DNA from: Dipodascopsis uninucleata var. uninucleata
Lineage: Eukaryota > Ascomycota > Lipomycetes > Lipomycetales > Lipomycetaceae
Length of the DNA stretch: 64,000 nt
Direction of reading: 5' to 3'
Assembly (NCBI GenBank): GCA_030568195.1
Contig: JAJLTO010000021.1
Coordinates: 62,001 to 126,000 of the forward strand
Below the pieces are notes generated by a model. It saw nothing but the letters and a program-made list of their open reading frames with translations, was not told where the DNA came from and did no database searches. The translations under genes were made by a program, and so were the position numbers. Positions 12,678 to 42,116 of this stretch are shown piece by piece (position 1 is the first letter of the stretch; every line of letters starts with the position of its first letter).

Positions 12678-15171
12678 ATGCCAAAGGCTAACTCCGATGG
12701 TAACTCGCGGCCAAAGCAGCAAAGAGTGAGGACAGGATGTCGTACTTGCAGGTCTCGGCACCGAAAGTGTATGTCTATGAATTCTTTCAGTCGAGGAAAT
12801 ATAGAATGCTGGCTAATTATGCGTACGCAGGTGACGAGGCGAGACCATCGTGCAATAACTGTAAATCGCGAAATCTTAGGTGTATATGGAACGCTACAAT
12901 TTTTTTCGTTGAGAACCAGAGCTCTTGGGGTGTGAGCTCTTCACACCGTATGCGATCCATCCCCAGTGCACCTATGGAATCAATTCAAGTATGTCCCTCG
13001 TTAGTTTTTCGGTTACAATATAATTGACACATGCTTAGATTGTCGACGAAACTGCCAGCTTGGCAGAAAAAAATGCCTTGTCAAGCAGTGTAGGCCAAAA
13101 TTCACAACAGATGAAAGACGGTAGCGAATATCGAAATGTCGCTGATGGCGACGCAGCTCTAGTTCTTCTTTCCTTGGAACGGGACAAGGAACTAAATATG
13201 GAAAACGAGAATGGTGGAGTTCGAGAAGGTAGTCACAGTAGGCATGTAGAGCGTCCAGCCTCTTCACGACAAAACTACTCGCGCGATACCTCAGCCTTGC
13301 CCTCTAATTCTAGTGTTTCACCAATTCCAGATCTCACACAGCAGCGGTCTTCTATCATAAGAGAGACAGAAAACACTTCACTTACATCACTATCTGAACA
13401 TTCTCTGCAAATCGCAGAGAATGCAGCAAGTATTATTTCAGTTTCTAGCGCAACATCAAACTACTCGTCTGCGTCTTCGAAGTCTATGGAAGGGAATAAC
13501 GTACCTGAGAACAAGGCTACTGCTGGCAGTCTTGGTCCTCAATATCATCGAGTACACCGCTATTCATCACCCTTATCTCATAGCATACTAGATAAACAAG
13601 AACCAATAATGATGGAAAGGTCTCCTACTGGCGGTCTACCTGCCATTCAGTCACCAGAAGACGTACTTATTTCCAGTGTATCACCTCAGGACTACTTAAC
13701 TGCATTTGACAGCATTGACCAGTTATCTGAGACTAGTTTTGGATATTTTACTAAATATCATAATCTGCATAATACATTACGTGATTATATGCTCTCTACC
13801 GCGCGGACCCTTACACCATTTAATGCTAGAAGTCCGGCGAATGATCGTGAAGAGCAATCTAATAGGGAGGCGTCGGCGCCATTGTCAGTAGAGCATGCTG
13901 GTACTTTTATCAAAGAAATACAGCCACTTACCGAGAAAGAAACGACTCGAATACTAAAAAACTATTTAGACGAAGTTGCGGGATGGCTGGACATGTTTGA
14001 TAAAGAGCGCAAATTTGCTACGGAAATAGTTTCGCTTTCAATGAACTGTCCTGCACTGTTTTATTCATTACTAGCGATATCGGCACGCCAGTTAGAAAGA
14101 GTCGACCATAACTGTCCCTCAGCTATGTCGTTGGAGCTTTATCAACAGTCTATCTCATATATTCTTCCTAGTGTAGAAACACATGATATAAAAATTATTG
14201 CGGCATGTGTTATCTTGTGTTGTTTGGAGATGATGAGTTCGTCTCCTCAGAACTGGAGAAGACATCTTGAAGGTTGCGCTGCTATGTTTTATTCTGCAGG
14301 AATAAACGGCTTTTGTGGTGGACTAGGACAAGCACTATTTTGGTGTTTTGCGCGTATGGACATTAGTTCAGCCGTTATAGGGGATGAAAGTACAATTATT
14401 CTCTCAAATGACTGGCTAGCGGCTGGCATGGATGTTCAAGAGGCTGGCGTGTATTTCAGGAATTCCGAGAGTCCAGATATGTATGCTAATTATGCCGTTT
14501 TCCTCTGTTCAAGAGTGTTAAATCTGATTTCAGCTATCGAAATTCATGACACAACTCTTAACTACGACCAGAACTGGGAAGATTTATGGAAAGAGTTGTG
14601 CGCATGGGAACAGATGCGTCCGATTGAGATGAAACCACTCTTATCTTATGAACCAGCAAAAGATGCTCCATTCCCAACTGTACTATATGCAAATGCACCA
14701 GCAAGTAAGTGTAGCATTTCTGATAAGAATCTGTATTCCTATAAGCTAATATTAAAGTATCTGGTAATCAACTGTACCATATGGCGTCAATCTTACTTAT
14801 GCAGCATAGACCACGAAGATATAACTTTCAGAAGCACCATGTAAGTAATCGCGCATGATTTGTATTAGAATGAAATTTTTATTAACCAAGTCCAGCATTC
14901 TATGCTATGGCATGCAAAACAGGTTTGCGCCATATCTATTACTAACACTCATCAGTAAGTATTTTGCTATTACTTAGCATGTATATTGCTAACATTTTGT
15001 AGCGGTTGCTGGAATAATGCTCTGCAGCCATTGTGGGTCGCAGGGAAACTTATGAGTCACCATAGTGAGCACGATGCGATACTTGAGTTACTTCGACAAA
15101 TAGAAAAAACCACAGGCTGGGCAATGCGCTGGCGTGGTGAAGATCTTAAAGAGATCTGGAAAAACGGATAG
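12678..15171 (+). CDS. Zn2Cys6 transcription factor with Fungal_trans_2-type effector domain
   Basis: Six exons: 12678-12768, 12831-12988, 13039-14704, 14758-14840, 14896-14954 and 15003-15171, giving 741 residues. All five introns have GT..AG ends with GTATGT or GTAAGT donors, and every junction keeps frame. The first intron interrupts the zinc cluster; removing it gives a canonical cluster C21-C24-C31-C38-C41-C48 (C-x2-C-x6-C-x6-C-x2-C-x6-C). The later junctions assemble the helical tail typical of this class: LYHMASILLMQHRPRRYNF, then CAISITN, then LQPLWVAGKLM. Residues about 75-270 are Ser-rich and probably disordered. The stop lies 242 bp from the stop of the sugar transporter, so this is a natural candidate regulator of the adjacent sugar genes. 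That role is inference from position only. Confidence 0.87.
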
Positions 15172-15413
15172 CCCAATTCTTGTTGTTCTCATCTAGAGTA
15201 GTGTTATAGTCTGTATATTACATAGACAATAGAAATTGGACTTTTAAATCCATAAAATACGCTAATAATATAGATCCACTTGATATTTAACTATCAATCC
15301 TATACAACAAGAAACATCAAATAAATTATATTGAGATTAATCAATCAATTATCTTGCTAATCAAGTAATTTAAATTATAAACGAAATACGCAAATTACTA
15401 GAAATATTATAGA

Positions 15414-17041
15414 TTATACATGTGACACTTCATCTTGTATGCTCTCAACTAGTTCTGTGTCTGCTTTTGGTGCCAGCTCAGCTTCTCTTTTCTTCTCGAC
15501 CATTGAGATATCCGCGGCTACACCTCTACACTGATAGCTAGGGAATTTACGAATAGGCACACGTTCCTGGAACATTTCGTCAAGCTCCTCCAAAGAACGA
15601 TTCTTTGTCTCGGGAACCACGAAGTAAATGAAGACAATAGCAACAACAGAGAATGCACCATATATGAAGGTAACACGTCCTCCAATTGCAGCCTGTATAA
15701 ATGGATTGACGAAATTGATGGGAACTGAGGTGACAAATGAGCCTAATGAAGCAAGCAGCACTGTTCGCTCTCTAAGCTGACCGGTTCCGATTTCACCTGA
15801 TACGATCCATGCAGCAGGACCCCATGAAATATGAAGAATAATATACCAAAGAATAAGCATAGCAATGCAGCCATTCTGTGCGCTCTTGCTAAGGTTTTCT
15901 GATCCATGAGCTGTAACTCCTCCGACTCCAAACATCATTATGGCTAGTCCAACAGCACCAATAAGTAAAATCAAACGTCTACCAAGCTTATCAAAAATGA
16001 AGAAGCAAGAGATGTTTGCAGCAACACCACATCCAGTGATGATAAGCATATCTCGTAGAGGATCACTAAACCCAAGTTGCCCCATAAACGTGACAAGGTA
16101 ATTGTTAATAAAAGATACCCCCTGTGCCTGTTGTAAAATCTGGATTCCCATAGCTATAACAGTTCTATTAAGATTTGAACCTTTAAAGCAGTCAATCATG
16201 CTCGTTGCCTTATGATACTCAAGCTGCTCTTCAAGCTGTACCTGAAGAAGATTTACTTCGGCATCGGCATTATAATCAGCGCCATATAGCATCAAAATCA
16301 CATTCTTTGCCTCCTCGAGCCGTCCCCTGAAAACTAAAAACCTTGGAGACTCGGGAATGAATGGGTAACTAAGAAAAATGCCAGCGGGGACGAAGAACTG
16401 AATGATCATCACCGTACGATAAGACCACGCGGATGTCAGATCATCGGACAAGTAAACAACCAATGTAGCCAACAAAACACCAAATGCATTGAAAAAGGAG
16501 TATGCATTAGTGAGACCACCTAGAGATTACCAAATATATTAGTATTATATCTTCATCTGCCCAAAGACGAAATTATGTCAGGAAAGCGCTTACCTCGAAC
16601 GTTTGGTGGCGAGCATTCACTCAAATATAAAGGAACAAGATTAGAGGCAAGACCAATTCCAGAGTAGACAATAATCCTGCCAATTACCAATTGCCAATAT
16701 GACGTCAATGCAGTGAGCTCGAGAACAACACCAAGGGAAAGAAGGCATGCCATAGTGAGGAAAGTTTTCTTTCTTCCTAAAATTCTCATAGAAAATGGAG
16801 CAATTAAGCAACCAATTATAATACCTGCCGAACCCGTTCCTGTACCTGCAGAGGTATATGAAGATGGGAGCGCATATTTGCCCTTAGAAGAATCGTATTT
16901 ACCATACTTTTTAGCGAATTCTTGGAGACCAAGAGCAGAACCCCACCAACCATTGTCATAACCAAAGCCCATGGCGCCGAACGACGCGATCGTCGCAATG
17001 AGTGCCAGGCGGCCGTTCAAGATTTTCAATGATTCCAACAT
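15414..17041 (-). CDS. Sugar/H+ symporter (MFS sugar porter)
   Basis: Two exons, 17041-16594 and 16519-15414, give 517 residues. The intron has a GTAAGC donor, a TACTAAT branch site and a CTAG acceptor; it joins PNVRG to GLTNAYSFFNAFG, the usual sequence after helix 4 of sugar porters. Sugar-porter signatures are RILGRKKT after helix 2, PESPRFLV before the central loop, QILQQAQGVSFINNY in helix 7 and PETKNRSLEELDE after helix 12. It is a plasma-membrane importer for a sugar, plausibly galactose, lactose or a pentose in view of the neighbouring reductase, dehydrogenase and beta-galactosidase. The GYDNGWWGS segment in helix 1 differs from the common GYDQG. The promoter has a TATA-like element and candidate regulator sites. 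Confidence 0.9.
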
Positions 17042-17140
17042 TATTTCTCTATAGATCTGTCTACAGTTCTCTTTAGTAATCTGTATGACTTTTGTCTGAA
17101 TATCTCGCTTTGCAGGTTGACTAGTAGACTTATATATGCA

Positions 17141-17170: not shown

Positions 17171-17337
17171 AGTCAGTGAAGCCTGGAGACCGACAGATTA
17201 TGTCGACGGCTAAGTGGACAGAATAGGATACGCCTTTTTTATTACCTTATTGTAGTTAAACGTAACGCCAAGTTAAAAAAAAAGGGAATGACAAAAGGTA
17301 TTAGCGACTAGTCTTACAATTTTACACTCTCAATTAT

Positions 17338-17640: not shown

Positions 17641-18752
17641 CTAGGCAAATATTCTTAATGGGCTCATAGTTAAGTATTCTCCAGGGTCATTAAAACGAAG
17701 GCCAATGTCCAAAGAAGAGATCTCAGCTAGGTCTTCTTTTGTCATGTCAAATCCAGTGACTTCCAAGTTAGACAATAAGCGATTAATACTATTCGACTTT
17801 GGAATAACAGCAATAGATCTCTGTGTTGCCCAGCGAAGGAGGACCTGAGCTGAAGTCTTGGAATACTTAGTGGCAATAGCCTTGACTTTCTCATTCTCAA
17901 ATAAAGGGCCAATAGCCTTGGCAGAATCAGAAAACTCCTTGGGAAGCTCAAGGAAAGACTGGGGCCCAAAGGAGGAGTATGCGGTTACTGTAATACCGTT
18001 CTCCTGTGCCATGTTTATCAACTCAGACTGAACAAGATAAGGATGATGCTCGATCTGAAGGACAGAAATTGGATGACGAGCATAGCTTAAGACATCGTAG
18101 AGCAGCTGAGAAGAGAAGTTAGATACTCCGATTGAGCGGGCAATTCCAAAATCAACCACAGCTTCCAAGGCCTCCCAAGTCTCAGAGATAGGTACTTTGT
18201 CAAGGGCAACACCAGATCGCTCGCTGTCGATCCACCAAGCTGGGAATTCTAGTTTGGCGGGATCAATGTATTTAAGAGCAATTGGGAAGTGGATCAGATA
18301 CAAGTCAATGTATCCGAGGCCCCAGGTATCATTTTGATACTTTGCCATTTTGAGAGCATGCTCCTTTCTGTGGTAATTGTTCCACAGCTTAGTGGTAATA
18401 AAGATCTCCTCTCGAGTCACAAGGCCCTCGGCAATAGCTTTTCTAATCCCCTCGCCTGCTTCTTTCTCGTTCTGATAGTCATAGGCTCCGTCGAATAGAC
18501 GATATCCCAGCTTAATTGCCTGTATACCGAACATGTCATGCTCTTGTCAGTATTTATATATTACTCTTATTCCCATCATCAATCACTCACATTATAAACA
18601 GCCTCTGCGGTTGTCTCTCTAGGAACTTTCCAGAGACCAAAGCCGACTTGGGGCATTTCCTAATACATGTTAGCAACTTCTGCATCGATTTTTTTTATCG
18701 AGACCTTAACACTCACATATCCAGACGCAAGCTTCAATTGAGGTACGGCCAT
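17641..18752 (-). CDS. Aldose reductase of the xylose reductase type (AKR2-like)
   Basis: Three exons, 18752-18717, 18659-18591 and 18519-17641, give 327 residues, the normal length for xylose reductases. Both introns have GTGAGT donors; the first has a perfect GCTAAC branch site. Spliced, the N-terminus reads MAVPQLKLASGYEMPQVGFG. The aldo-keto tetrad is Asp45, Tyr50, Lys79 and His112 (motifs GYRLFDGAYDY, TTKLWNN, LIHFP). SIGVSNFSSQLL, QIEHHPYL, AYSSFGPQS and the NAD(P)H-binding IPKSNSINR are all present. It should reduce an aldose (D-xylose, L-arabinose or D-galactose) to the polyol in the cytosol. It is divergent from the polyol dehydrogenase, sharing a 415-bp promoter, so the two probably act in sequence. 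In the lactose/galactose setting, galactose to galactitol is a plausible in vivo reaction. Confidence 0.92.
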
Positions 18753-18872: not shown

Positions 18873-18962
18873 TAAATATTTTAGAAGCTATTAATTAGGA
18901 AAGCGTGTCGATATCGAATTGGATTGTTGTTCTCAAAAATTTATGTTCTATTTAGATATGTT

Positions 18963-18976
18963 AGGCTATATAGCCT
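18963..18976. promoter_or_regulatory. 14-bp perfect palindrome AGGCTATATAGCCT
   Basis: A perfect self-complementary sequence with no spacer in the middle of the shared promoter, about 90 bp from the 21-bp palindrome. It could be a second operator or chance in AT-rich DNA. Confidence 0.3.
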
Positions 18977-19167
18977 ATTTTGTAACATTAAGCACAGCGC
19001 CATTTAAAGAACAGTAAAGTGCTTTTATTGGTTTCGATATTATATGAAGTATTGCTAAATCAATTATCTGTTTATCTGCATTATAATGAAATATATATAA
19101 AAGTTATGAAAGTCATAGATACACATATCTTCTAAGAACTGCGTTTTTTTAACAAGCATACATAGTA

Positions 19168-20358
19168 ATGTCACCCCCTGTTCTTATCAATTCTCCTACC
19201 GGCTCGGATGCCGATTCGCATTCTGAATATTACATCAGGAAGAATGTACTTCCCTCGATGGACAACCCAGCATTGATAGTAACAAAAGATCATACTATCA
19301 AAATGGAGCAGATGCCAATTCCTGTACCCAAAGCCGACGAGGTACTTTTGCACGTCAAATGTTCTGGTATTTGCGGATCAGATATTCATTTTTGGAAAGC
19401 AGGCGCTATTGGCGAGCTTAAAGTCCTGGGCGACTGCATCTTGGGACATGAGTCTGCTGGTATCGTTCTTGGAGTTGGAGAAGACGTACGGAACGTTGCT
19501 GTAGGAGATCGAGTTGCCATCGAGCCTGGAGTCCCTTGCAATAAATGCTTTTTATGCCAAGATGGAAAATATAACCTTTGCGAGGATGTTGCCTTCATTG
19601 GCGTGTATCCCTATCATGGATCGCTGCGACGTTACATGGTACACAAGGCCCGCTATGTTTTCAGAATCCCAGAAAACATGACGTATGCACAGGGTGCATT
19701 GGTTGAGCCACTGTCGGTTGTCATGCATGCTGTTGAACGAGCACCATTGAAGTTTGGCAAAAGCTGTCTAATTTCAGGTTGTGGACCTATTGGTCTTATT
19801 GCTCTTGCCGTCGCAAAGGCATCCGGGGCATCTCCAATTGTGATAACCGACGTTGTTGCCGAGAGACTTGAATTTGCAAAGAAATTTGTCCCAGGATGCT
19901 TAACTTATTGTATAGATGTGAACAATAGGCCGGAAGAGAATGCGAAGGAAATTCGTAAATTGTATGGTCCGAACGAATATGATGCACCCCCTACTGTTCT
20001 TGAGTGTACGGGAATTGAAGCTAGTGTGGTCACTGCATGTTTTACGGTCCAGCGAGCAGGTCAGGTCATGGTGATTGGTGTTGGTCGTGCGGTTATGAAT
20101 AACATACCATTCATGCACCTTTCCTTGGCCGAGATTGATCTTACTTTTACAAACCGCTACCATGACACTTGGCCCCGAGGAATCCAGTCACTGAGTCAAG
20201 GTCTATTAAATCTCGATAAACTCGTTACTCATACATTTCCTTTGGAACAAGCTGAGCATGCTTTGAAGTTTTCCGCTGACATTCGTAATGGTAGTATTAA
20301 GGTCCATATTTTAGACGAAGTCGACACCGAAGATAAAGTGGCTATGGGTATAGAATAG
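19168..20358 (+). CDS. Zinc polyol dehydrogenase, L-arabinitol/galactitol/sorbitol type
   Basis: 396 residues; an internal Met at residue 31 is a possible alternative start, since the first 30 residues are not conserved in the family. It is a medium-chain zinc alcohol dehydrogenase. Catalytic zinc ligands are Cys69 (GICGSDIHFW), His94-Glu95 (GHE) and Glu180; the structural zinc site is Cys124, 127, 130 and 138. The NAD motif GCGPIGL is at 204-210 with Asp228 after the second strand. HFWKAGAIGELKVLGDCILG and the NRYHDTWPRGI block near residue 330 point to the L-arabinitol 4-dehydrogenase branch more than to xylitol dehydrogenase; that enzyme class also oxidises galactitol. With the divergent aldose reductase it can form the first two steps of oxidoreductive galactose or of L-arabinose catabolism. 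Exact substrate unproven. Confidence 0.9.
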   Translation: MSPPVLINSPTGSDADSHSEYYIRKNVLPSMDNPALIVTKDHTIKMEQMPIPVPKADEVLLHVKCSGICGSDIHFWKAGAIGELKVLGDCILGHESAGIVLGVGEDVRNVAVGDRVAIEPGVPCNKCFLCQDGKYNLCEDVAFIGVYPYHGSLRRYMVHKARYVFRIPENMTYAQGALVEPLSVVMHAVERAPLKFGKSCLISGCGPIGLIALAVAKASGASPIVITDVVAERLEFAKKFVPGCLTYCIDVNNRPEENAKEIRKLYGPNEYDAPPTVLECTGIEASVVTACFTVQRAGQVMVIGVGRAVMNNIPFMHLSLAEIDLTFTNRYHDTWPRGIQSLSQGLLNLDKLVTHTFPLEQAEHALKFSADIRNGSIKVHILDEVDTEDKVAMGIE

Positions 20359-20679: not shown

Positions 20680-22167
20680 ATGTATTTATTGGTTTTAGCG
20701 TCGCTGCTTTGCCTCGTTGCAATCAGATATGTGATCGCGGTGGATGTGTTTGTGCTGTCAGACATCTGTAATGAGCCAGATGACACCGAATCACTTATTA
20801 GGTTGTTACTCTACTCTAACGAGATAACAATCAAAGGTCTAGTAGCAACTACATCTACCTGGCAGAATTCAACTGTCCGACCAGACGAAATGTTGACTGT
20901 CATTGATGGATATGAAAAGGTAGTTGAAAACCTAAATCATCATCGGTCCGGCTATCCCTCTGCTGACTACCTCAGATGCATAGTCAATTCTGGACCTGAT
21001 GTCTATGGGCTCTCGGCATTGTCGCAAGTCAAAGCTAATGAACCTTCAACAATTTCGGAGGGATCAAGGGCCTTGCTTAAGGCAGTAGATGAGACTGCGT
21101 TCGGCGAGAAGCTATTCATCCAATGCTGGGGTGGAGCCAATACGCTTGCTCAAGTTCTTCACTACGTGAGTAAGTCACGTTCTACCGAAGAAATAAAAAC
21201 ATTTACATCAAAGATCTCTGTATATGCAATTTCTGATCAGGATGATTCTGGTCTGTGGATTAGAGAGAAATTTCCTGAAATTCGGTACATTGCTTCTGTA
21301 CATGGGTTCAACATGTATTCTCAGGCAGCCTGGGTAGGAATTTCGGGCGAGACCTTTTATGGCTTTGACAAGGGCGGACCTGACACATCCCTCGTCAGTC
21401 ATGAGTGGGTCAAAAAGAATGTTCAGATTGGGCCACTTGGCTCTCTGTATCCAGACTTTGCATTCATCATGGAGGGTGACACTCCGGCATTCTTGTCAGT
21501 GATCCCGAATGGACTAAACATTCCGGAGCATCCTGAATACGGGGGTTGGGGAGGCCGCTATGCGCTTACAGATACTAGCGGTCGATCCAATCACTACAGT
21601 GATGTTCCAGATGCTATCATTGGCCTTGATGGTACACTTCATCGAAGTAGTCAAGCTACCATATGGCGCTGGCGAGAGGCATACCAAAACGATTTCGCAG
21701 CAAGGATACAGTGGACACTTTCAAGTGACTTTGAGTCCGCCAACCACGAGCCTCACGTAGTTTTAAACGGTACTACGGGTAGCATTATATATGAAATTGA
21801 ACCTGCTGCTGGCGATAGCATTTATCTTGATGCTTCTCAATCTTATGATGACGATAAAAGTGACACTTTAGAGTATCGATGGTATCAGTACAAAGAAATA
21901 TCTGCAATCCAGTCGTTGACGGAATACGAAGTGCTAACGACCCCGATCACCGATATCAGCAAAGATGGCTCAATTGTAAGGGTAGACATCCCTGGACCCG
22001 AGCAAAGCTGCATTAATTGGGCTACTAGGGAGGTTATTGAGCAATGTAAATACTATCATTTGATCTTAGAGGTCATTGACAATGGAAAGCCGCGTTTACG
22101 CTCCTATAGGCGAATTTTGGTTAAACCTATAAACAAAGCTTTAGAACCTCTGCATGACGAGCTCTAA
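20680..22167 (+). CDS. Secreted Sde182/DUF1593-like protein, copy B
   Basis: 495 residues. A signal peptide spans about residues 1-21 (MYLLVLASLLCLVAIRYVIA). The nucleoside-hydrolase-like domain starts with LSDICNEPDD and contains YAISDQDDSGLWIR, GISGETFYGFDKGGPD, MEGDTPAFLSVIPNGL and ATIWRWREAYQNDFAARIQW, nearly all shared with the copy at 9114. An Ig/PKD-like domain (LDASQSYDDDKSDTLEYRW) fills the C-terminus. It lies head-to-tail between the polyol dehydrogenase and the beta-galactosidase, with only 204 bp to the latter, which suggests a role in using an external galactoside or plant polymer. Whether it hydrolyses or only binds sugar is unknown for most of the family. Confidence 0.87.
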   Translation: MYLLVLASLLCLVAIRYVIAVDVFVLSDICNEPDDTESLIRLLLYSNEITIKGLVATTSTWQNSTVRPDEMLTVIDGYEKVVENLNHHRSGYPSADYLRCIVNSGPDVYGLSALSQVKANEPSTISEGSRALLKAVDETAFGEKLFIQCWGGANTLAQVLHYVSKSRSTEEIKTFTSKISVYAISDQDDSGLWIREKFPEIRYIASVHGFNMYSQAAWVGISGETFYGFDKGGPDTSLVSHEWVKKNVQIGPLGSLYPDFAFIMEGDTPAFLSVIPNGLNIPEHPEYGGWGGRYALTDTSGRSNHYSDVPDAIIGLDGTLHRSSQATIWRWREAYQNDFAARIQWTLSSDFESANHEPHVVLNGTTGSIIYEIEPAAGDSIYLDASQSYDDDKSDTLEYRWYQYKEISAIQSLTEYEVLTTPITDISKDGSIVRVDIPGPEQSCINWATREVIEQCKYYHLILEVIDNGKPRLRSYRRILVKPINKALEPLHDEL

Positions 22168-22329: not shown

Positions 22330-25563
<3,234 letters not shown>

Positions 25564-25920
25564 TCAGCCGTTTGCATTACTAGTAACACATAATTGAGCG
25601 TATTATTAACCATAGTAACAAAGATTATCCCATGAGCTTTACGATTGCCTATTCCTGGCAGACTCAATTCTGCTATGCATCCAGTAGAGCCGCTTGCCTT
25701 GCGAAAGTTCCATTTAGCACCAACAAGTCGTCTCAGGGATGGACCGCGCACACCTGTGGTCGGTTAGATGTAGTAAAACTTTTCTGTTCCATACTGCCTA
25801 TCAGGAGTATAGCTCCGAGAGCTCCGAGAGCTCCAGGCGTCGTACGTCCACTGCATTGTTCCCTGGCTCGCCTCTCTCCTGAATAGTGCCTTCGGAGCAG
25901 TCCAAGCAGCCGCAGCTGTC

Positions 25921-25950
25921 ATATGTCACGTGATGTGTCACGTGACATAT
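25921..25950. promoter_or_regulatory. 30-bp inverted repeat with two TCACGTGA boxes
   Basis: Perfect 13-bp arms ATATGTCACGTGA (25921-25933) and TCACGTGACATAT (25938-25950) around TGTG. Each arm contains the palindrome TCACGTGA, the core bound by bHLH factors such as Cbf1 (CDEI) or USF-like proteins. It stands 360 bp after the beta-galactosidase stop. Another TCACGTGA-type site is near 26900. Confidence 0.5.
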
Positions 25951-28015: not shown

Positions 28016-28024
28016 TATATAAAG
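28016..28024 (+). promoter_or_regulatory. TATA box TATATAAAG of flavin monooxygenase gene
   Basis: A consensus TATA element 237 bp before the start codon, followed by a long leader that contains a (TA)10 run and a pyrimidine-rich stretch. The strong box fits the high codon bias of the gene. Confidence 0.5.
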
Positions 28025-28180
28025 AACAGGCTCGCCTGCTACAGGACATACTCCTCTATACCTTCATCACCATCTAGCAAGATCTCCAAGATCAGAACAA
28101 GCAGTGCAGGCCTTCCTTAGTTCTAAAAGCACAGAGTACTGAGCAGCATCCACCTGTCAGAGCATATACATATACATTCT

Positions 28181-28200
28181 TATATATATATATATATATA
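28181..28200. repeat. (TA)10 microsatellite
   Basis: Ten TA dinucleotides in the probable 5' leader of the flavin monooxygenase gene. Confidence 0.8.
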
Positions 28201-28260
28201 TTCTGCATTTTTTTCGTTTCACTTCCTAAAATTTAACTCAGATCCGAAAGAACAATAGCA

Positions 28261-30096
28261 ATGGTTTCCTACTACGTTGCTCCTCGTCCTCAGTCTCTTC
28301 CAGTCAAGGTTCTCACCGCAGACCTTACTCCTGAGCAGGCTAAGGCCATCAGCAGCGACTGGTTGAGTCGTTTCAACGCCGCAGTCTCATCGGCTGATGC
28401 CAGCGCTTTCGACTCTCTCTTCGTCGAAGACGAATCTTACTGGCGTGATACTGTCGCCTTCACTTCTGACTTCCGCTCTATCGCTAAGCCAAATATCTTC
28501 CAGGCCGCTACCGATCGTCTCGCAATTGCCCAGGCCAGTGGCGCCGAGCTCTCTGAACCAGCTCCAGCTGTTGATCAGCCGTTCGACGATGTCGCCTACG
28601 TCCAGGCACACTTCAAATTTACAACCAAGATCGGCCCTGCAGTTGGTATCGTTAAATTGCTTCCTGTCGAAGGAATCTACAAGGCTTACATCCTTTACAC
28701 CACTCTCATCGGTGTCCACGGTCACGAGGAGAAGATTGGCGTCAACCGTCTTCGTGGTGTTCACAACACTAAGGAGTCTTACGATGAGATGCTCGCCGCA
28801 TCTATCGAGGACCCCAAGCCAGATGTTGTCATTGTTGGCGGTGGCCACAATGGTCTTGAAATTGCCGCCCGTCTCCGATACATGGGTGTTAGCGCTCTTG
28901 TTATTGACAAATACAAACGTGTTGGTGACAACTGGCGCCGCAGATACAAATCTCTCTCTCTCCACGATCCTGTCTACTCTAACCACTTGGCCTACATGCC
29001 TTTCCCTGAGACGTGGCCAATTTTCACTCCTTCTGGCAAGCTCGCCAATTTCCTCGAGTATTATGCTGACTGCATGGAGCTGAAGGTCTGGACCGAGTCC
29101 GAGATTATTACCAATGAGACCGCTTTTGATGAGCAGACAAAACAGTGGTACGTCTCTATTAATCGCGCCGGAACTAAGCGTACTTTCAACGTTTCACATG
29201 TCATTATTGCCACCGGTATTGGTGGTGGATACCCAAAGATGCCACCAAAGTTTAAGGGACAGGACCTTTTCAAGAATAAGATTGTTCACTCTTCTGCTCA
29301 CGGAACTGGTAACGACTGGAGCGGAAAGACCGCTCTCGTCGTTGGTGCTTGCACCTCTGCACACGATATTTCCTATGACTTTTACAATAACGGTGCTAAG
29401 GTTACCATGCTACAGCGCTCTCCAACGTATGTCATGTCTGTTGAGAAGGGTGTTCCAATGGTCCAGCCATACAGCGAGACCGGTCCATCAACATGGACTG
29501 TCGATTTGCTGGCTGAGTCTGTCCCCAAGATCGTCGCTCGTCTTTACCACAAGCGATTTGTTCCAAAGATTGCTGAGGCTGATAAGGACCTACTTGCTGG
29601 CCTTGAGAAGGCTGGATTCAAGCTCTATAAGGGTATGGAGGACTGCGGTTTCTTCCTTCTCACCAATGAAAAGTCCGGTGGTTACTACTACGACACTGGA
29701 TGCTCTCCACAGATTATCAACGGTAACATCAAGATCAAGGGCGGCGAGATTGACTACTTTACGGAGGACTCTGTTGTCTTCAAAGATGGAACTTCTATGA
29801 AGCCAGACATTGTTGTGTTTGCCACAGGCTACACTGGATTCAAGGACCAGATCGAATCCATCCTCGGGCCTGAGTACGCTGCTAAGTTCAAGCCGTTCTG
29901 GGGTCTTGACGAGGAGGGCGAGCTCCGAGGAACCTGCCGTGGCAACGGCGTTCCAAACTGCTACTATGTTGTTGGACCGCTTTCTGGCGCTCGATTCAAT
30001 TCGCTGATCACAGCGGTCCAGGTTATTGCCGAGCGCGAGGGTCTTCTTGGCGACAGATACACCATCGAGGCTCAGGCGAAGAAGAGCGTCAAGTAG
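28261..30096 (+). CDS. FAD/NADPH flavin monooxygenase with N-terminal NTF2-like domain
   Basis: 611 residues, no intron. An N-terminal domain of about 170 residues resembles the NTF2/SnoaL fold often fused to fungal monooxygenases (SSDWLSRFNAAV, then TTKIGPAVGIVKL). The flavoprotein part has the FAD-binding GGGHNG at 193-198, a FKGQDLFKNKIVHS segment resembling the FMO fingerprint at 331-344, the NADPH-binding VVGACTSAHDIS at 360-371 and the late FATGYTGF. Such enzymes oxygenate small nucleophiles, ketones or indole-3-pyruvate; the substrate here is unknown. Codons are strongly biased to C/T-ending preferred forms unlike its neighbours, which also leaves long shadow frames on both strands. 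This and the strong TATA box imply high expression. It lies isolated between two GC-rich spacers inside the galactose region; a role in sugar use is not evident. Confidence 0.9.
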   Translation: MVSYYVAPRPQSLPVKVLTADLTPEQAKAISSDWLSRFNAAVSSADASAFDSLFVEDESYWRDTVAFTSDFRSIAKPNIFQAATDRLAIAQASGAELSEPAPAVDQPFDDVAYVQAHFKFTTKIGPAVGIVKLLPVEGIYKAYILYTTLIGVHGHEEKIGVNRLRGVHNTKESYDEMLAASIEDPKPDVVIVGGGHNGLEIAARLRYMGVSALVIDKYKRVGDNWRRRYKSLSLHDPVYSNHLAYMPFPETWPIFTPSGKLANFLEYYADCMELKVWTESEIITNETAFDEQTKQWYVSINRAGTKRTFNVSHVIIATGIGGGYPKMPPKFKGQDLFKNKIVHSSAHGTGNDWSGKTALVVGACTSAHDISYDFYNNGAKVTMLQRSPTYVMSVEKGVPMVQPYSETGPSTWTVDLLAESVPKIVARLYHKRFVPKIAEADKDLLAGLEKAGFKLYKGMEDCGFFLLTNEKSGGYYYDTGCSPQIINGNIKIKGGEIDYFTEDSVVFKDGTSMKPDIVVFATGYTGFKDQIESILGPEYAAKFKPFWGLDEEGELRGTCRGNGVPNCYYVVGPLSGARFNSLITAVQVIAEREGLLGDRYTIEAQAKKSVK

Positions 30097-33000: not shown

Positions 33001-33364
33001 CGGCCAGATATCTTTGCGCTGCAGTTCTGAGAACTCGACGAACCTAGTTTTCAGTTAAAGACGCAATTGCTCGAACGTCTATCTGTACTGTGAATACAGC
33101 TAGCTGTCTCTACATCGTATCTTTTTTTTGGCTGAAAGGACCCACCATCGTGGACTTTTATACATATATAGCCTGAAGGTGCTCTTCCCGATAAAAATAT
33201 CCGCCGTGGCTAACTCCGGGCTGAAGACTTCCAGCGTTTTATGGATTTGGTGCTGCGATAGTCCTTCCTGTTTCCCGCTCTCGCTCAAATAGACAGAACT
33301 GATCCCGGATCAGTTTGATATAAGCACCGCGCATTTAGCTATATACCACCTACGATAGGAAACC
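30097..33364. other. GC-rich spacer downstream of flavin monooxygenase
   Basis: 3.3 kb without a supported gene. The first 350 bp are AT-rich with a T-run near 30202, fitting a polyadenylation region. From about 30,360 to 32,700 the sequence is GC-rich (one sampled line near 31681 counts 33 of 60), with overlapping short frames on both strands, up to 156 codons, lacking any domain. The last 600 bp are AT-rich again and should be the promoter of the regulator at 33365, including a 19-bp palindrome at 33297. No transposon ends or tRNA-like structures were recognised. Confidence 0.5.
33297..33315. promoter_or_regulatory. 19-bp palindrome before regulator start codon
   Basis: Arms AACTGATCC and GGATCAGTT flank a single C. 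The centre reads TCCCGGA, an everted CCG/CGG arrangement that zinc-cluster proteins can recognise. It ends 49 bp before the ATG of the Zn2Cys6 gene, a natural place for autoregulation. Confidence 0.4.
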
Positions 33365-35977
33365 ATGGTTCGACGAGCTGTGGGCGATGATATCTTTGTC
33401 TACGAGACTAATGTGCAGAATCCTCTCGCGGCTGCTACGCCTCGTGTGCGAGCCTGCGAGCGCTGTCACAAGCAGAAGCTTAAATGCGATACTTACCGAC
33501 CTTGTGCTTTGTGCGTTCGATCCAACATTGTTTGTGTAGAGCGGCCTGAGACTAATTCTAAACGGAAGAACAGTGTTGCTCCTCTGAGCTCTGATTGCCA
33601 TTCACACTCTCATAGCAGCGGTTCTAGTGAAAAGCGAGCTAAATACAACCACCAAACTCACTCAGCTTCGCTTTCCAAGTCTGATGGCGATAGTAGTAAT
33701 AAGGATGAGGACAAGCATACACCTTCCGACTCGCTTGAGCATACGCTGACCAGGCCTGCTCTTGTCACTGTGAATTCTTCTACTGCATCTTCCAACGCGC
33801 CTTCTTGTGCAACTGCAACCTCTCCTTCTTCGGCCTCCTCTCGATCGTCTCCAGCCATTCCTGCCAGTGCCTGTCTAGAATTTGACATTGGCCTGCCGGT
33901 TGGGAGCGGTGCCTCTGCTCAGGCCAGGGATGAGAAGTGTCATTCTGACGTCGCTGGTTCGACGCCTATAGTCGACCCGTTCGGTTTAGGAACTCTATCA
34001 CCTTCTTCGCTGTCTGAGTCAAAGTTTAGGAAGTGGGCATCTCAGCGGCCTCATACTGCAGAATTGTGGACTCAGATGCCATCTCCTGAAGTTATAGACT
34101 ACTGTATCAAGGTGTATTTTAACTCTATCCACTGGTTCATGGTGGTTGTACATGAAGGCAGAATCACCACGAAATACGCTACTCTTTTTGAAGCATACGA
34201 GCTTGACCGCTTATCTATGCCAGACTCGGACGAGGACTTTACATTCGTCTTGCTCCTGATGATGATAGTTGTTATGGGTGCCAAGTGTGCTCTTATGCAT
34301 CCTGTTCGTCGCAGGAAGCTACTGACTCTCATGTCATGTTCTGAGGAGTCGGTTGAGAATACAATGGCCAGCCTTATCTCTATAATTAGATCTCATCTTT
34401 TGGATGCTCTTTCTGTCTGTACCCTAGAGACAGTTCAGACTTGTATATTATTAGGTTCTTTTTATCTCTACCATGGTGATCCAAACATTGCGTGGTCTAT
34501 TCTTGGATGTGCTTATAAAGCCATCCAGGCGCTATCTTTAAACAAGGAAAAGCAGTGGATAAAATCCAGTGGAATCACTGATCCATCTTTGAATGAGATA
34601 ACACAGCTGCGGCGCCGTATATTCTGGGCGCTCTATATATCAGATCGTTTTTCCGCTATGGCGTATGGACGACCGCTTGAGATTCAGGATGAAATGTGCG
34701 ATATTGGCCTTCCTAATGATATTACAACCTATCCTGTCTTTGGTAGCCCATCCTACCTTCCAGATGGACCTTCAGATGAGCCTACTTTGTTAACCTATCA
34801 GGTTTATAAGGTCGAGTTTTATGTCATTCTAGGAGAGATAATAGCTAATCTCTACACGTCACCTTCATTAGGTTGTTCTGCATTAGTCCAAAAGTATAAT
34901 AGTCAAAATCGACCCTCATCGCGAGCATCAATGATATCTAATGCTTCTATGTCATCGCCAACGTCGCATGCCGAACTTCGAAATAGCGTTGAGGAGCTTG
35001 AAGCGAAACTCAGAGCATGGTATGTCGCGGTACCTGATGCACTTAAACTTGATGCAGTTCTAGATAACGCTCCTGAGGATTTGAGCATGAATCCAGACAT
35101 GGATGATGGCGACGACTTCCTTGTTTCACCAGATGAATCGTCTGACGAGGCCAAGGAACAATTTAGGCGCAATGTGCTTGGAGTGGAGGCATTGGTGCTT
35201 CAATTAGGTTATGATAACGCACTAATAATGCTTCATCGTCCATTCCTTGCGACTGATGCGCAGTCTGCCGAAAAATGCTGGAATGCAGCACTGCGGATGT
35301 CAAGGGTGTCTAGTCACCCTGGACTATTCGCTGGGATCCAGGCCTCACATGCAGTATCTTTTGTCTGTTTGCATCTTTTCACTGCAGGTGTTGTTCTCAG
35401 CTACTTTGGATGCCGTGAACCACTCTCTGTTCGCGCATTGGAATCGAAGCAGGCTATGGGTCGTATATTACGCATGCAGAAGGCATTGTCAGGGAACGCA
35501 TTAGTAGCTGATAGGGGTCATGAGATACTAGAGAACCTCACTCGTGCTCTTGTTGAAAAAGAGATGGATCGCATTCTTACTTTTAACGCAGTAGATACTC
35601 CTAGGCCTGCGGTTCCATTTGAAGATATGATAACACTCGATGACTTCATTTGGCCTGCTAGTTCCGTTGACAGATATGTTTCCTCAAAGTCGGCTGACAA
35701 GCGAGTTACGTCAAGAGGACTAAATATCCTGGAGAATGGAGGAAGCAATTCATCTAGCAGTAGTACCATTAGTGATTTTAGTGATAGCACTGATCGCACC
35801 GACAGTACGAAAGCTACTGAATCATCGACTATGAGTAGTTCTCTGTGGGGACTTGGGCTGAGCTCATCCTCTGGGGGAGTTAATGGAAGCACTATACTGA
35901 ATTCAACCTATGGAGATACACTATTTGATTTTGATAAGGGCGAATATGAATTCTTAAATTCGTTATCTGTGCATTAA
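33365..35977 (+). CDS. Zn2Cys6 transcription factor, large type, copy 2
   Basis: 870 residues in a single exon. The zinc cluster is at Cys31, 34, 41, 47, 50 and 57, followed by a Ser-rich stretch (about 60-195). The fungal middle-homology domain (about 230-560) is complete, with LETVQTCILLGSFYLYHGDP, the LRRRIFWALYISDRF core and YGRPLEI. The C-terminus has Ser/Thr-rich and acidic patches that could activate transcription. It is the full-length paralogue of the factor at 6215; the two bracket the transporter, reductase, dehydrogenase and beta-galactosidase block. It lies 430 bp from the 3' end of GAL7 and may regulate the galactose genes, but nothing in the sequence fixes its targets. Confidence 0.9.
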   Translation: MVRRAVGDDIFVYETNVQNPLAAATPRVRACERCHKQKLKCDTYRPCALCVRSNIVCVERPETNSKRKNSVAPLSSDCHSHSHSSGSSEKRAKYNHQTHSASLSKSDGDSSNKDEDKHTPSDSLEHTLTRPALVTVNSSTASSNAPSCATATSPSSASSRSSPAIPASACLEFDIGLPVGSGASAQARDEKCHSDVAGSTPIVDPFGLGTLSPSSLSESKFRKWASQRPHTAELWTQMPSPEVIDYCIKVYFNSIHWFMVVVHEGRITTKYATLFEAYELDRLSMPDSDEDFTFVLLLMMIVVMGAKCALMHPVRRRKLLTLMSCSEESVENTMASLISIIRSHLLDALSVCTLETVQTCILLGSFYLYHGDPNIAWSILGCAYKAIQALSLNKEKQWIKSSGITDPSLNEITQLRRRIFWALYISDRFSAMAYGRPLEIQDEMCDIGLPNDITTYPVFGSPSYLPDGPSDEPTLLTYQVYKVEFYVILGEIIANLYTSPSLGCSALVQKYNSQNRPSSRASMISNASMSSPTSHAELRNSVEELEAKLRAWYVAVPDALKLDAVLDNAPEDLSMNPDMDDGDDFLVSPDESSDEAKEQFRRNVLGVEALVLQLGYDNALIMLHRPFLATDAQSAEKCWNAALRMSRVSSHPGLFAGIQASHAVSFVCLHLFTAGVVLSYFGCREPLSVRALESKQAMGRILRMQKALSGNALVADRGHEILENLTRALVEKEMDRILTFNAVDTPRPAVPFEDMITLDDFIWPASSVDRYVSSKSADKRVTSRGLNILENGGSNSSSSSTISDFSDSTDRTDSTKATESSTMSSSLWGLGLSSSSGGVNGSTILNSTYGDTLFDFDKGEYEFLNSLSVH

Positions 35978-36404: not shown

Positions 36405-37487
36405 TTATTGTTTCAACGTGTACGAGACTAGAGATAGAGCTCGTAGCCTATCCGCTGCTTGTTCTGGAGTTAAATCCCTCTGAGGCTCGCCGAGCATTTC
36501 GTACCCAACAAGAAATTTTTTAACGGTAGCTCCTCTGAGTAATGGAGGATAGAAATGCAAATGCAAGTGTGCTGTATTTAGTTCAGCCTCGGTCGGATCA
36601 ATGGGTGCCTGGTGAATACCCATAGAGTATGGGAATGAAGTCTCGAAGAGATTGTCATATCTAATAGTTGTCTTTGATATAATATCAGCCAGATCCTTCT
36701 TCTCATCACTAGTCAGGTCTATGAGTGCAGGAATACGACGTTTAGCAATGATCATCACTTCGAATGGCCAAATTGCCCAGTAAGGAACAAGGGATGTAAA
36801 TGAATTGTTCGAATCAATTATACGGCTTCCATCCTCTAGTTCGACGGCAAGATAGTCCAGCAAAATGTGGCTATCGGGATAGTCTTTAGAGTACTTTTGC
36901 ATACTTCTGAACTCTCTAAAAAGCTCAGTCGGAAGCGATTCTGTACACCATGCCTGACTGTGAGGGTGGGGATTGGAGCAGCCCATTGCAGCTCCCTTGT
37001 TCTCGAATATCAAGAGATATCTGCCGACTTTATCACGCTTAGTTGAACGATACAATTCAGTCCAGGTATCTACTACCTTTGCAATTTCATCGATACTCAT
37101 AAGAGGAAACGATATGTTATGTTTAGGACTAAAACAGATGACATAGCAATTTCCACGTACGCCCTGCACTTTGAATAGTCGCTTGCGTCGTTCGTCTTTT
37201 TCAGTTTCTTCGAGTGCCTGGACATCAAGTAATTCTTGGTCGGGTTTCACTGCAGCATAATCATTCTCAAAGATAAACGTAGTAGTATATTTCTCATTCT
37301 TAGCACCTGATGCTCGCTTATTTCCTGGGCACAAGTAGCATGATTTCACATATTCCGGCAGATCATTGCGGGCTGCAGTTTCTTCTTGACCCTGCCATGG
37401 CCTCTGTGTTCGGTGAGGAGACACCAAGACCCAGCTGTCAGTCAATGGATTGTACCTTCTATGACTATCGTTATTGAAGTCAAACAT
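36405..37487 (-). CDS. GAL7: Galactose-1-phosphate uridylyltransferase
   Basis: 360 residues from the ATG at 37487, matching the length of yeast and bacterial enzymes; an upstream in-frame ATG at 37559 would add 24 unconserved residues. The Leloir enzyme exchanges UMP between UDP-glucose and galactose-1-phosphate in the cytosol. The catalytic HPH triad is His174-Pro-His176 (NPHPHSQAW), with His176 the nucleophile. Zinc ligands are Cys50 and Cys53 (CYLC), His123 and His174. RRYNPLTDSWVLVSPHR and LHLHFYPPLLR are standard family blocks. It is the first of three minus-strand Leloir-type genes in a row; the GAL10 epimerase that usually sits beside it is absent from the window. Confidence 0.97.
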   Translation of the reverse strand: MFDFNNDSHRRYNPLTDSWVLVSPHRTQRPWQGQEETAARNDLPEYVKSCYLCPGNKRASGAKNEKYTTTFIFENDYAAVKPDQELLDVQALEETEKDERRKRLFKVQGVRGNCYVICFSPKHNISFPLMSIDEIAKVVDTWTELYRSTKRDKVGRYLLIFENKGAAMGCSNPHPHSQAWCTESLPTELFREFRSMQKYSKDYPDSHILLDYLAVELEDGSRIIDSNNSFTSLVPYWAIWPFEVMIIAKRRIPALIDLTSDEKKDLADIISKTTIRYDNLFETSFPYSMGIHQAPIDPTEAELNTAHLHLHFYPPLLRGATVKKFLVGYEMLGEPQRDLTPEQAADRLRALSLVSYTLKQ

Positions 37488-38230: not shown

Positions 38231-39754
38231 CTACAACGCGACGATGGCAGAACCACGAGCAGGCTCGGTAACTAGAATTGCTTCGTCTAGAGCAGCAGAA
38301 TCAAGTTCCGGCCAACGAACATTATAGTACTCACGCTTCAGGGTATATAAGAATTCCGGCACAAGGTCAGACCGAACAAGTGAAACAGTAGAACCACCCC
38401 AACCGGCTCCAGTCAAGCGCGAACCATATGCGCCAGAAGCCAGCGCGATGGAGACTATCTTATCGAGCTCAGGACATGAGCAGTCAAAGAGATCTCTACA
38501 TGAAGTAAAGGAATCATTCATAAGCGAACCAAGCTTCTTTAAATATGCTTCAGATTGGCTCGTAGACATAGCTACCTCGCCGTTAGTAGAAGTAGCCTTG
38601 TCCAGCACAGTACAGAACTCTTCCACACGGAGTGCCTCTTGCAGTACGTGAAGCGTCCTGGATCTCAACTGATACTTCTCTGCCCTTACAGGGAACCTAG
38701 TCATATATTTCATAGTCAGAATTTCTGGAGTCGTATGAAGAATATCAGCTATTTCACTAAGAGTATAGCCGTCTGATTTCGGAAAAACTGTGTCGATAAC
38801 CGAGAGTAAGTTCTTAATCCCTCCGTACGCATCAGCCGCTACACGTAGACTAGCGCCAAAGCCATCTCTGATTGGAAGCTTTCCAAGATTTAAAACAACA
38901 GCAAATATCTCCGCTGCTAGTGTTGTTTCCACAACTCTCAGATTGTAGTGAACCGGGCCAGTGACATGCTTGTCTGCTAGAACCAACGAATTGGCCACAA
39001 CGAATGAAAATCCTGGAGAAGTAGAAACAAATTCAACAGGATCAGCCCTGAGTTTCGGGTAGAAAGATATTCGTAGAGCATGACCAGGAATTCCAAAGAC
39101 CGATGCTGTCTGGTCCATACCACCCGAATTAACACCGACAAATCTCTCAGAAACTACAGCTGTCTGAACAAGAGCAGACTTGGATATAACTGGATCCACC
39201 TTGTCATCGTGTGCAAACTGTACAGTGGCAATGATAGCAAGAACAGCAGCGCAGACAAAGGCCGATGATGACGACAAACCAGATCCAGTTGGAATCTTAC
39301 CGTCAACTAGAATCTTCATACCGGGCACTTTCATATCTTTACCTAATACATTGAGAGCACCTCTGACGCCAGAAAGGAAATAATTGCTCCATTCATGGAC
39401 CGTTGAGTCGATAGGGAACACTCCAAGACCTTCCGCGTTAAAACAGCGTTTACCAAATCTGTCTTCGTCGATATTCTGCAGCTCGATGTTTGAAGATTTT
39501 GCGTCAACTAAAACAGCAATGAGAACATCCTGTGTAATTGCCATTGGTAAAACGTCAAAAAGCGAATAATCTATATGTTCACCAATAATATTCACTCGTC
39601 CAGGCGAACGAGCAACGAATGTTGGCTCATGCCCATATTTGCTTTTGAATGTCTCTTGAAGACCATGCCACCTAACGCTCTGCTTCTTCAAAGCAGTCTG
39701 TCCCGTATATATGCTAGAAAGCGAATCAACGATTGGTACCAAGTCTACTGTCAT
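38231..39754 (-). CDS. GAL1: Galactokinase, copy 1
   Basis: 507 residues, one exon, GHMP kinase family. It phosphorylates galactose at C1 with ATP. Galactose-binding and catalytic motif PGRVNIIGEHIDY starts at residue 51 (Arg53); the ATP loop is PTGSGLSSSSAF (155-166); the catalytic Asp is 214 in SGGMDQTAS; and the third GHMP motif GSRLTGAGWGGSTV is near residue 450. The loop matches the yeast GAL1 form PTGSGLSSSAAF and does not show the Ser-Ala deletion that makes Saccharomyces Gal3 inactive, so it should be a working kinase. It is in tandem with GAL7 downstream and a second galactokinase upstream, all in the same direction but with long gaps, so separate promoters are likely. Confidence 0.96.
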   Translation of the reverse strand: MTVDLVPIVDSLSSIYTGQTALKKQSVRWHGLQETFKSKYGHEPTFVARSPGRVNIIGEHIDYSLFDVLPMAITQDVLIAVLVDAKSSNIELQNIDEDRFGKRCFNAEGLGVFPIDSTVHEWSNYFLSGVRGALNVLGKDMKVPGMKILVDGKIPTGSGLSSSSAFVCAAVLAIIATVQFAHDDKVDPVISKSALVQTAVVSERFVGVNSGGMDQTASVFGIPGHALRISFYPKLRADPVEFVSTSPGFSFVVANSLVLADKHVTGPVHYNLRVVETTLAAEIFAVVLNLGKLPIRDGFGASLRVAADAYGGIKNLLSVIDTVFPKSDGYTLSEIADILHTTPEILTMKYMTRFPVRAEKYQLRSRTLHVLQEALRVEEFCTVLDKATSTNGEVAMSTSQSEAYLKKLGSLMNDSFTSCRDLFDCSCPELDKIVSIALASGAYGSRLTGAGWGGSTVSLVRSDLVPEFLYTLKREYYNVRWPELDSAALDEAILVTEPARGSAIVAL

Positions 39755-40439: not shown

Positions 40440-42116
40440 CTACAGCCTACTATTGTACAGTATAACGCCATTAGCTGGAGAAAGTTCAAAAATTGCAGTC
40501 TCCAACTCCTCTTTAGTGATATTAGGGAATCTCACAGCATAATATAGTTGTGTAAGAGAGTTGACTACGTCAGCGACATGCGATTCGTCGACGAGCGAAA
40601 GAGTACAACCACCCCAACCTGTTCCTGTTAACCGAGATCCCAGCGCCCCATTTCCTCGCGCGATCTTGACCATAGAATCCAGAGGTTCGCAAGAGCAGTC
40701 AAAATACTTTGCACATGATTCGTGCGACTCGTTCATTAGCTCACCTAGCTGGGTTCCTACTAGCTCCAGCGTATTTTGATTTTCTTTAGTCTTCAATTTC
40801 CCATATGACGATTGTAGTAGTGTGCGGAATATCTTTGTTCGATGCTGCTCTTCTAAGACATGGATGGCTCTATCACGAAGGTTAAATAACTGTACCCTTA
40901 CGGGGAATCTAGTCATATACTTTCGGACAATTTCTTCAACGTCTACCCCTAGCATGTCGGCAATTTCAGTAATTTCATAAGCGTCCTTCGGTAACAGCGC
41001 ACGTACACAAGCGACTAGTGCCTCCGTAGCTTGTTCATCCGATACGCGCTCTTTAGCGCAGAACTGACTATAGACCCCGCGCAAAGTACCCCCGAATCCA
41101 TCTCTCATTTCTAATCGAGTAAGGTTGAGTTTATGTGACAACACTTCAGCAGCCAACGTTGTCTCCACAACCCTCACATTGTATTTATCCGGACCTGTGA
41201 TAGCTCGATTGTTTTTGACCAGAGAATTGGCAACAATAAATCGGAAAGGGCCTACCGATATAGACTCTGCCGACAACAGAGGTCGAAAATCGACATATAA
41301 AGCATGATCCTGCACGCCATAGACAGAGGCACTTTGATCCATGCCTCCGGAATTAATGCCTAAAGCGCGCTCTGATATCACTGCGCAATTCACTAAAAAT
41401 GATTTTTCAAGCTCAAATGAAGCTAAATGCGTCGCCCTCATAACTGCCACTAGTGACGCACAAACAAATGCACTAGAAGAAGAAAGCCCTGCACAGACAG
41501 GAACATCACCGTCCACTAGAATTTTCATTCCTCTAAGTATGTGGTCACCCTGCACACCATCAGACATCGTTGTGAGTCTTGAAAACGTAAGCGCACCTTT
41601 AAGGCCAGCTAAAAAGTACGTTGACCAGTCGAGAGGATCTGCATCGTCGCTGCTGGAACTAGGTGTGCTGCTACGGTTCTCGCTTTTCTGAACAACAGCA
41701 AAAAATGGGTTGGCAAAGTCAGAAGACTTGAAGCTTCTGGAAGGGTATCTGCTATGATCTATATTAGCAAGATTTATGTCTTCACTTCCAGTCTTGTCGA
41801 TAGCCACTGCTACTAGAAAATCATGGCATGTGGCCATTGGCATCACGGGAAACCAAGAATAGTCAATATGTTCTCCGATAATGTTTACACGGCCAGGCGC
41901 CCTTGCGATAAAGTCGATCTCTTGATTGTAAATGCTCTTAAATCTTTCTTTCAAGTTATTCCATCTCAGGTATTGTCGATGCAGCTCTGTCCGTGCGTAG
42001 ATATTCTCAAGTCGATGTACCTCCGGCACGAGTGCACCTTCCGGCTTGGTCATCAGCGGTGGAGGAGAGGGCCTCGGCGACGGCCGCGATGAACTTGTCC
42101 AAGGCGAACCTGCCAT
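40440..42116 (-). CDS. GAL1: Galactokinase paralogue, copy 2 (possible kinase or sensor)
   Basis: 558 residues, one exon. GHMP motifs are present: PGRVNIIGEHIDY from residue 74 (Arg76), the ATP loop PVCAGLSSSSAF (206-217), catalytic Asp260 in SGGMDQSAS and GSRLTGTGWGGCTLSL near residue 500. Differences from copy 1 are a Pro/Ser-rich N-terminal extension of about 20 residues, a Ser-rich insertion at about 142-160, and VCAG in place of TGSG before the loop serines. All catalytic residues I can see remain, so it may be active. By analogy with the GAL1/GAL3 pair of other yeasts, one copy could have become a galactose sensor, but there is no GAL80 in the window to partner it. A TATATATA element lies about 35 bp before the start. 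Confidence 0.92.
   Translation of the reverse strand: MAGSPWTSSSRPSPRPSPPPLMTKPEGALVPEVHRLENIYARTELHRQYLRWNNLKERFKSIYNQEIDFIARAPGRVNIIGEHIDYSWFPVMPMATCHDFLVAVAIDKTGSEDINLANIDHSRYPSRSFKSSDFANPFFAVVQKSENRSSTPSSSSDDADPLDWSTYFLAGLKGALTFSRLTTMSDGVQGDHILRGMKILVDGDVPVCAGLSSSSAFVCASLVAVMRATHLASFELEKSFLVNCAVISERALGINSGGMDQSASVYGVQDHALYVDFRPLLSAESISVGPFRFIVANSLVKNNRAITGPDKYNVRVVETTLAAEVLSHKLNLTRLEMRDGFGGTLRGVYSQFCAKERVSDEQATEALVACVRALLPKDAYEITEIADMLGVDVEEIVRKYMTRFPVRVQLFNLRDRAIHVLEEQHRTKIFRTLLQSSYGKLKTKENQNTLELVGTQLGELMNESHESCAKYFDCSCEPLDSMVKIARGNGALGSRLTGTGWGGCTLSLVDESHVADVVNSLTQLYYAVRFPNITKEELETAIFELSPANGVILYNSRL

Follow-up and report, generated by a model that had tools for sequence, protein, structure and literature searches.

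Can galactose released at one fungal locus be sent down two catabolic routes? The question is raised by a 64,000 nt stretch of Dipodascopsis uninucleata var. uninucleata DNA (GenBank assembly GCA_030568195.1, contig JAJLTO010000021.1, positions 62,001 to 126,000; hereafter the window), in which a preliminary description had placed the Leloir pathway and the start of the oxidoreductive galactose pathway side by side, between positions 12678 and 42116. Pfam scans found every gene named there undamaged and within that region: a GH2 beta-galactosidase (LACZ), a sugar transporter, GAL7, two galactokinases (GAL1a and GAL1b), an aldose reductase (AR) and a zinc dehydrogenase of the L-arabinitol 4-dehydrogenase (LAD) type. 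The divergent arrangement of the last two genes likewise holds, and they have a 415-bp promoter in common.

We consider it plausible, stopping just short of probable, that the region is a composite beta-galactoside/galactose cluster with the potential to use two routes. The scheme that follows infers the co-regulation of the genes, the flux, and which substrates the transporter, reductase and dehydrogenase use. The transporter would import lactose or fragments of plant galactan, galactosides that LACZ would cleave inside the cell. Either GAL1a or GAL1b, followed by GAL7, would take the bulk of the galactose into the Leloir route, for which GAL10 would lie elsewhere. AR would turn part of the galactose into galactitol, which the LAD-type dehydrogenase would oxidise with NAD+. 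This branch would serve for overflow or redox balancing, or as the entry to a galactitol route with its later enzymes elsewhere.

Gene identities and active sites

LACZ is closest to Kluyveromyces lactis Lac4 (3ob8, 704 bits) and has the full GH2 architecture of that type with both catalytic Glu motifs, one of them reading SLGNESFYG. The best PDB relatives of the transporter are STP10, GLUT1 and XylE, which are uninformative for substrate. GAL7 and both galactokinases exceed the curated NCBIfam equivalog cut-offs (TIGR00209 and TIGR00131, respectively). The galactokinases carry the GHMP signatures with the GLSSSSA loop intact and are only 44% identical to each other, and are thus old paralogues. 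By analogy with Gal1_2 of Candida (Sungouiella) intermedia (PMC11497787), one of them may be regulatory. A Gal3-like loss of kinase function was ruled out, as the GLSSS loop is without the Gal3-type deletion in both.

AR is of the yeast xylose reductase (XR; AKR2B) type. It matches solved yeast XRs with 355 bits versus 207 for the next group, shares 54% identity with the XR of C. tenuis, and has the tetrad D45/Y50/K79/H112 together with the coenzyme residues K276/N278/R282. Trichoderma reesei reduces D-galactose mainly with its XR-type Xyl1 (PMC4651341).

The LAD-type dehydrogenase and its substrate

The closest solved relative of the dehydrogenase is the Neurospora crassa LAD, at 49% identity versus 38-41% for sorbitol/ketose reductases, and in a small tree of 6 sequences it clusters with LAD and not with sorbitol dehydrogenase (SDH; support 0.98). 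Like N. crassa LAD and Aspergillus niger LadA it retains the zinc ligands (C69/H94/E95 and E180) and the GSDxHF motif. The structural Cys set is present, and D228 assigns it to the NAD type. However, Rutten et al. (PMC2731777) described two pocket positions that divide LAD (Met70 and Tyr318 in LadA) from xylitol dehydrogenase (XDH) and SDH (Phe at both), and the residues found there, Leu84 and Asn329, belong to neither group. Two segments are also changed, S/ATPP to GVYP (145-148) and RYCNTWP to RYHDTWP. In a comparison of one LAD with three SDH/ketose reductase (KR) sequences, N. crassa LAD departs at 71 columns from a residue that is invariant in SDH/KR, and at 39 of these the dehydrogenase fits neither side. 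The enzyme is thus of the LAD lineage but has an altered pocket. An AlphaFold model of it, for which no alignment was used, reached a pLDDT (predicted local distance difference test) of 33 and was discarded.

Because the pocket departs from that of an ordinary LAD at both published positions, it would fit a substrate other than L-arabinitol; a plain pentose role thus appears less likely, and a galactitol role remains a candidate. T. reesei Lad1 oxidises galactitol, with Xyl1 and Lad1 acting on D-galactose and galactitol (PMC4651341). In a bolder version the enzyme would be a re-specialised LAD, dedicated by its changed pocket (Leu84, Asn329) to the oxidation of galactitol (hexitol). Hydrolysis of lactose, entry into the Leloir pathway and the first two oxidoreductive reactions would in that case be brought together at one locus, in a lineage separate from that of C. 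intermedia, and a palindromic operator of its own would control the polyol pair. We hold this version to be doubtful.

The same pocket, unlike that of LAD and of SDH at L84, N329, GVYP and RYHDTWP while its zinc ligands are kept, might instead have been adapted to some other polyol or sugar, the pair handling a third substrate supplied by the transporter. With so few sequences compared some of the differences may be ordinary divergence, and the reductase is unremarkable; this explanation seems to us improbable.

The main rival takes the locus to be an arabinogalactan or pectin side-chain cluster, in which AR and the dehydrogenase would convert L-arabinose to L-arabinitol and on to L-xylulose, and LACZ and the GAL enzymes would deal with galactose. 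The genes would lie together because both sugars derive from the same plant polymers. LAD is after all the closest solved family, and both sugars co-occur in pectin and arabinogalactan, with AraR, XlnR and GalR co-regulating both pathways in A. nidulans (PMC4651341, PMC9151342). Leu84 and Asn329 argue the other way, as they replace the very residues reported to set LADs apart from XDH/SDH, and no linked gene for an arabinosidase, L-xylulose reductase, XDH or xylulokinase was found. The Sde182-family gene between the dehydrogenase and LACZ bears on this rival from both sides. One bacterial homologue, in a planctomycete (Sedimentisphaerales) locus (L014, 6321-19576), directly follows a GH2 beta-galactosidase gene and is itself followed by pectate lyase, rhamnosidase, pectinesterase and arabinofuranosidase-type genes. 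This context is not general among bacteria, however, and Sde182 was rejected as a general pectin marker because 76 neighbours in bacterial loci showed no carbohydrate theme. On balance we regard the arabinogalactan explanation as rather unlikely. The choice between galactose and arabinose may nevertheless be a false one. In T. reesei a single reductase and a single LAD serve both pentoses and galactose, while A. niger has a separate LadB (PMC4651341), so the present pair could serve both sugars.

Organization of the region

The region is better seen as two blocks lying 7.8 kb apart (Table 1). In the first, the transporter and AR lie to the left of the AR/LAD promoter, and to its right are the co-oriented dehydrogenase, Sde182 and LACZ genes, spaced 321 and 204 bp apart. 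The second consists of GAL7-GAL1a-GAL1b plus regulator C. The DNA between LACZ and regulator C (25564-33364) is GC-rich, at ~50% versus ~40% for the window, and its sole gene encodes a flavin-containing monooxygenase. Small open reading frames (ORFs) in the GC-rich gaps resemble non-coding reading frames, and Rfam gave no match. GC content at third codon positions peaks in the monooxygenase (0.56, the highest among the genes measured) and, at 0.51, in the 3' half of LACZ. The monooxygenase gene is flanked on both sides by long stretches that look non-coding. Most genes of the window are without introns, and the introns that occur differ in their donor sites. CTG codons in the LAD-type gene and GAL7 fall mostly at leucines kept in relatives; CTG is therefore read as Leu, the standard code applies and the host, likely a yeast, does not belong to the CUG-Ser1 group.

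Table 1. Coordinates of the features of the galactoside region and its left flank within the window
Feature	Position	Strand	Remarks
Zn2Cys6 regulator A	6215..8596	+	Paralogue of regulator C; possible left extension of cluster
Second Sde182-family protein	9114..10583	+	Adjoins regulator A; possible left extension of cluster
Zn2Cys6 regulator B (Fungal_trans_2)	12678..15171	+	Pfam Zn_clus and Fungal_trans_2; ATG at 12678; several introns, 3' exons putative; left edge of region
MFS sugar transporter (PF00083)	15414..17041	-	Exons 17041-16594, 16519-15414; one intron
Aldose reductase, yeast xylose reductase type	17641..18752	-	Exons 18752-18717, 18659-18591, 18519-17641
Palindrome TAGGCTATATAGCCTA	18962..18977	.	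AR/LAD divergent promoter
LAD-type zinc polyol dehydrogenase	19168..20358	+	
Sde182-family protein (PF07632 and PF21027), nucleoside-hydrolase-like	20680..22167	+	Between LAD and LACZ
GH2 beta-galactosidase, LACZ/LAC4 type	22372..25563	+	Catalytic Glu motifs
Flavin-containing monooxygenase	28261..30096	+	Between blocks; cluster role doubtful
Zn2Cys6 regulator C (Fungal_trans)	33365..35977	+	Paralogue of regulator A
GAL7, galactose-1-phosphate uridylyltransferase	36405..37487	-	HPH motif intact; above TIGR00209 cut-off
Galactokinase GAL1a	38231..39754	-	Above TIGR00131 cut-off
Galactokinase GAL1b	40440..42116	-	Above TIGR00131 cut-off

The size of the region, its long gene-poor DNA, the unrelated genes interspersed in it (monooxygenase, regulators) and the want of a shared motif are what a chance neighbourhood would look like, one in which neither AR/LAD nor Sde182 is functionally connected with LACZ or the GAL genes. 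The tight spacing and common orientation of the dehydrogenase, Sde182 and LACZ genes tell against chance, as do the placing of a reductase and its matching dehydrogenase on one promoter and the precedent of C. intermedia. The chance of such an AR/LAD pair within ~7 genes of LACZ is about 2%, a rough estimate on assumed figures of ~10 genes per type among 7000. We think a chance neighbourhood highly improbable.

Promoters and completeness of the two routes

Near the midpoint between the AR and LAD start codons lies a perfect 16-bp palindrome, TAGGCTATATAGCCTA. A GC-containing palindrome of that length is expected in the promoter interval with a chance of ~0.007. TAGGCTATATAGCCTA is a candidate regulator site. 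GGCTAT half-sites, which we take to be weakly like the XlnR/Xyr1-type sites GGCTAR or GGC(A/T)n, would lend the arabinogalactan explanation some slight support. A second perfect palindrome, GTAACCCTAGGGTTAC (42874-42889), lies ~760 bp upstream of GAL1b and is telomere-repeat or Tbf1-like; as an element common to the GAL1b and AR/LAD promoters it was rejected, since it is not shared.

Several observations weigh against a composite cluster serving two routes. The monooxygenase and ~6 kb of apparently non-coding DNA split the two blocks, and TAGGCTATATAGCCTA has no second copy in the window. The Gal4/Lac9 site CGG-N11-CCG occurs in no cluster promoter, its 3 matches in the window all lying outside them, and Pfam found a Gal4 dimerisation domain in none of the regulators; regulation of the Gal4/Lac9 type was rejected on both grounds. 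GCGCAA, the best hexamer shared by the transporter, AR/LAD, Sde182, LACZ, GAL7 and GAL1 promoters (6 sites in 3.9 kb), fails after correction for ~2000 tests. As no motif common to the AR/LAD and GAL promoters was found, the sequence lends no support to co-regulation of the pair with the GAL block. Neither a GAL10 epimerase nor a mutarotase was found among the Pfam-scanned proteins of the window, a set that excludes the small gap ORFs. The Leloir set is therefore partial, and a linkage of GAL1, GAL7 and GAL10 was not found. Pfam scans likewise revealed no L-xylo-3-hexulose or L-xylulose reductase (short-chain dehydrogenase/reductase), second polyol dehydrogenase or xylulokinase in the window, so that the oxidoreductive route ends here after two steps. 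The remaining steps of both routes must be encoded in other parts of the genome. AR and LAD families serve L-arabinose catabolism in many fungi. Finally, the ladB primers given for A. nidulans in PMC4651341 encode Met at the M70 position, where the window enzyme has Leu84, and Leu84 is thus not a known galactitol-dehydrogenase signature.

The proposal that galactose can be sent down two routes accordingly stands in part. The linkage is real and the enzymes are of the right types (as in Xyl1/Lad1 of T. reesei, PMC4651341), but both routes are incomplete at the locus, no motif was found in common between the AR/LAD and GAL promoters, and the specificity residues fit no characterised class.

Comparison with known gene clusters

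In the GALLAC cluster of C. intermedia GAL1_2, XYL1_2, GAL10_2 and LAC9_2 lie together (PMC11497787, PMC12930983). The XR gene, located beside GAL1 and GAL10, is co-induced by lactose and by galactose, and galactitol is produced by gal mutants (PMC11497787). LAD1 expression correlates with that of XYL1_2 and the Leloir genes, and the yeast both produces and uses galactitol, on which single lad1 or xyl2 deletions still grow (PMC12930983). Like GALLAC, the present region combines a galactokinase paralogue and an XR-type AR with a Zn2Cys6 regulator, although ~20 kb separate galactokinase and AR genes here, and C. intermedia also has Leloir and LAC genes. In C. intermedia, however, GAL10_2 and LAC9_2 belong to the cluster, LAC4/LAC12 and GAL7 form separate clusters, and GALLAC includes no LAD-type gene. 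The D. uninucleata region contains LACZ, the LAD-type gene, Sde182 and GAL7, reads CTG as Leu, and shows neither a GAL10 copy nor the Lac9/Gal4-type regulator with CGG-N11-CCG promoter sites that characterises GALLAC. In a survey of 332 yeasts the GALLAC combination was found in C. intermedia alone (PMC11497787). That survey demanded GAL1 and GAL10 together, and a GAL10-less locus like the present one would presumably have gone uncounted.

The adjacent GAL1 and GAL7 recall the yeast GAL cluster (GAL1-GAL10-GAL7), and a Lac4-type beta-galactosidase near a sugar transporter recalls the LAC cluster (LAC12-LAC4). Unlike those clusters, the region has two galactokinases and extra polyol genes, no GAL10 was found, and the transporter is at most a putative Lac12 counterpart. 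With the oxidoreductive D-galactose pathway of Aspergillus and Trichoderma (Xyl1, LadB or Lad1, XhrA, SdhA) it has in common the first two steps, AR and a LAD-family dehydrogenase. It differs in having the later enzymes unlinked and a dehydrogenase whose pocket is unlike that of LadA and, at one primer-read site, unlike that of LadB. That such genes are usually scattered calls for some qualification, as C. intermedia carries GAL1, GAL10 and AR in one cluster and the locus numbers of A. niger ladB and xhrA are nearby (PMC4651341).

As far as the literature was searched, the linkage of LACZ, a reductase, a LAD-type enzyme and GAL genes is new. Should the pair act on galactose, the region would be the second case, built independently of the first, in which a galactose locus of a yeast has recruited an AR, and the first found here to have a LAD-type dehydrogenase and a beta-galactosidase alongside. 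It would also provide a natural template for making galactitol and tagatose from whey or galactan, as well as two pocket residues that may bear on polyol specificity.

Sde182 proteins and neighboring genes

The two Sde182 proteins are 48% identical to each other, no more than the ~46-48% identity that bacterial homologues reach. Both have a hydrophobic, signal-like N-terminus and a C-terminal HDEL, the fungal endoplasmic reticulum (ER) retention signal, which suggests residence in the ER lumen. The solved homologue 2YHG is inactive on nucleosides and was proposed to bind a furanose sugar (PMC8910321).

Regulators A and C are 60% identical over the zinc cluster and each lies near sugar-related genes. 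The cluster may reach left to ~6.2 kb. An ORF at 10815-11303 (minus strand) resembles an Mpv17/PMP22-type membrane protein and is probably intron-bearing; Pfam found nothing in the single ORF. Two short Zn2Cys6 proteins without a Fungal_trans domain, 40% identical, are encoded at 46662-47513 and 49865-50674. At the left edge of the window (1-3099) two convergent paralogous MFS transporters, 42% identical, resemble the fungal allantoate-permease group, a putative assignment.

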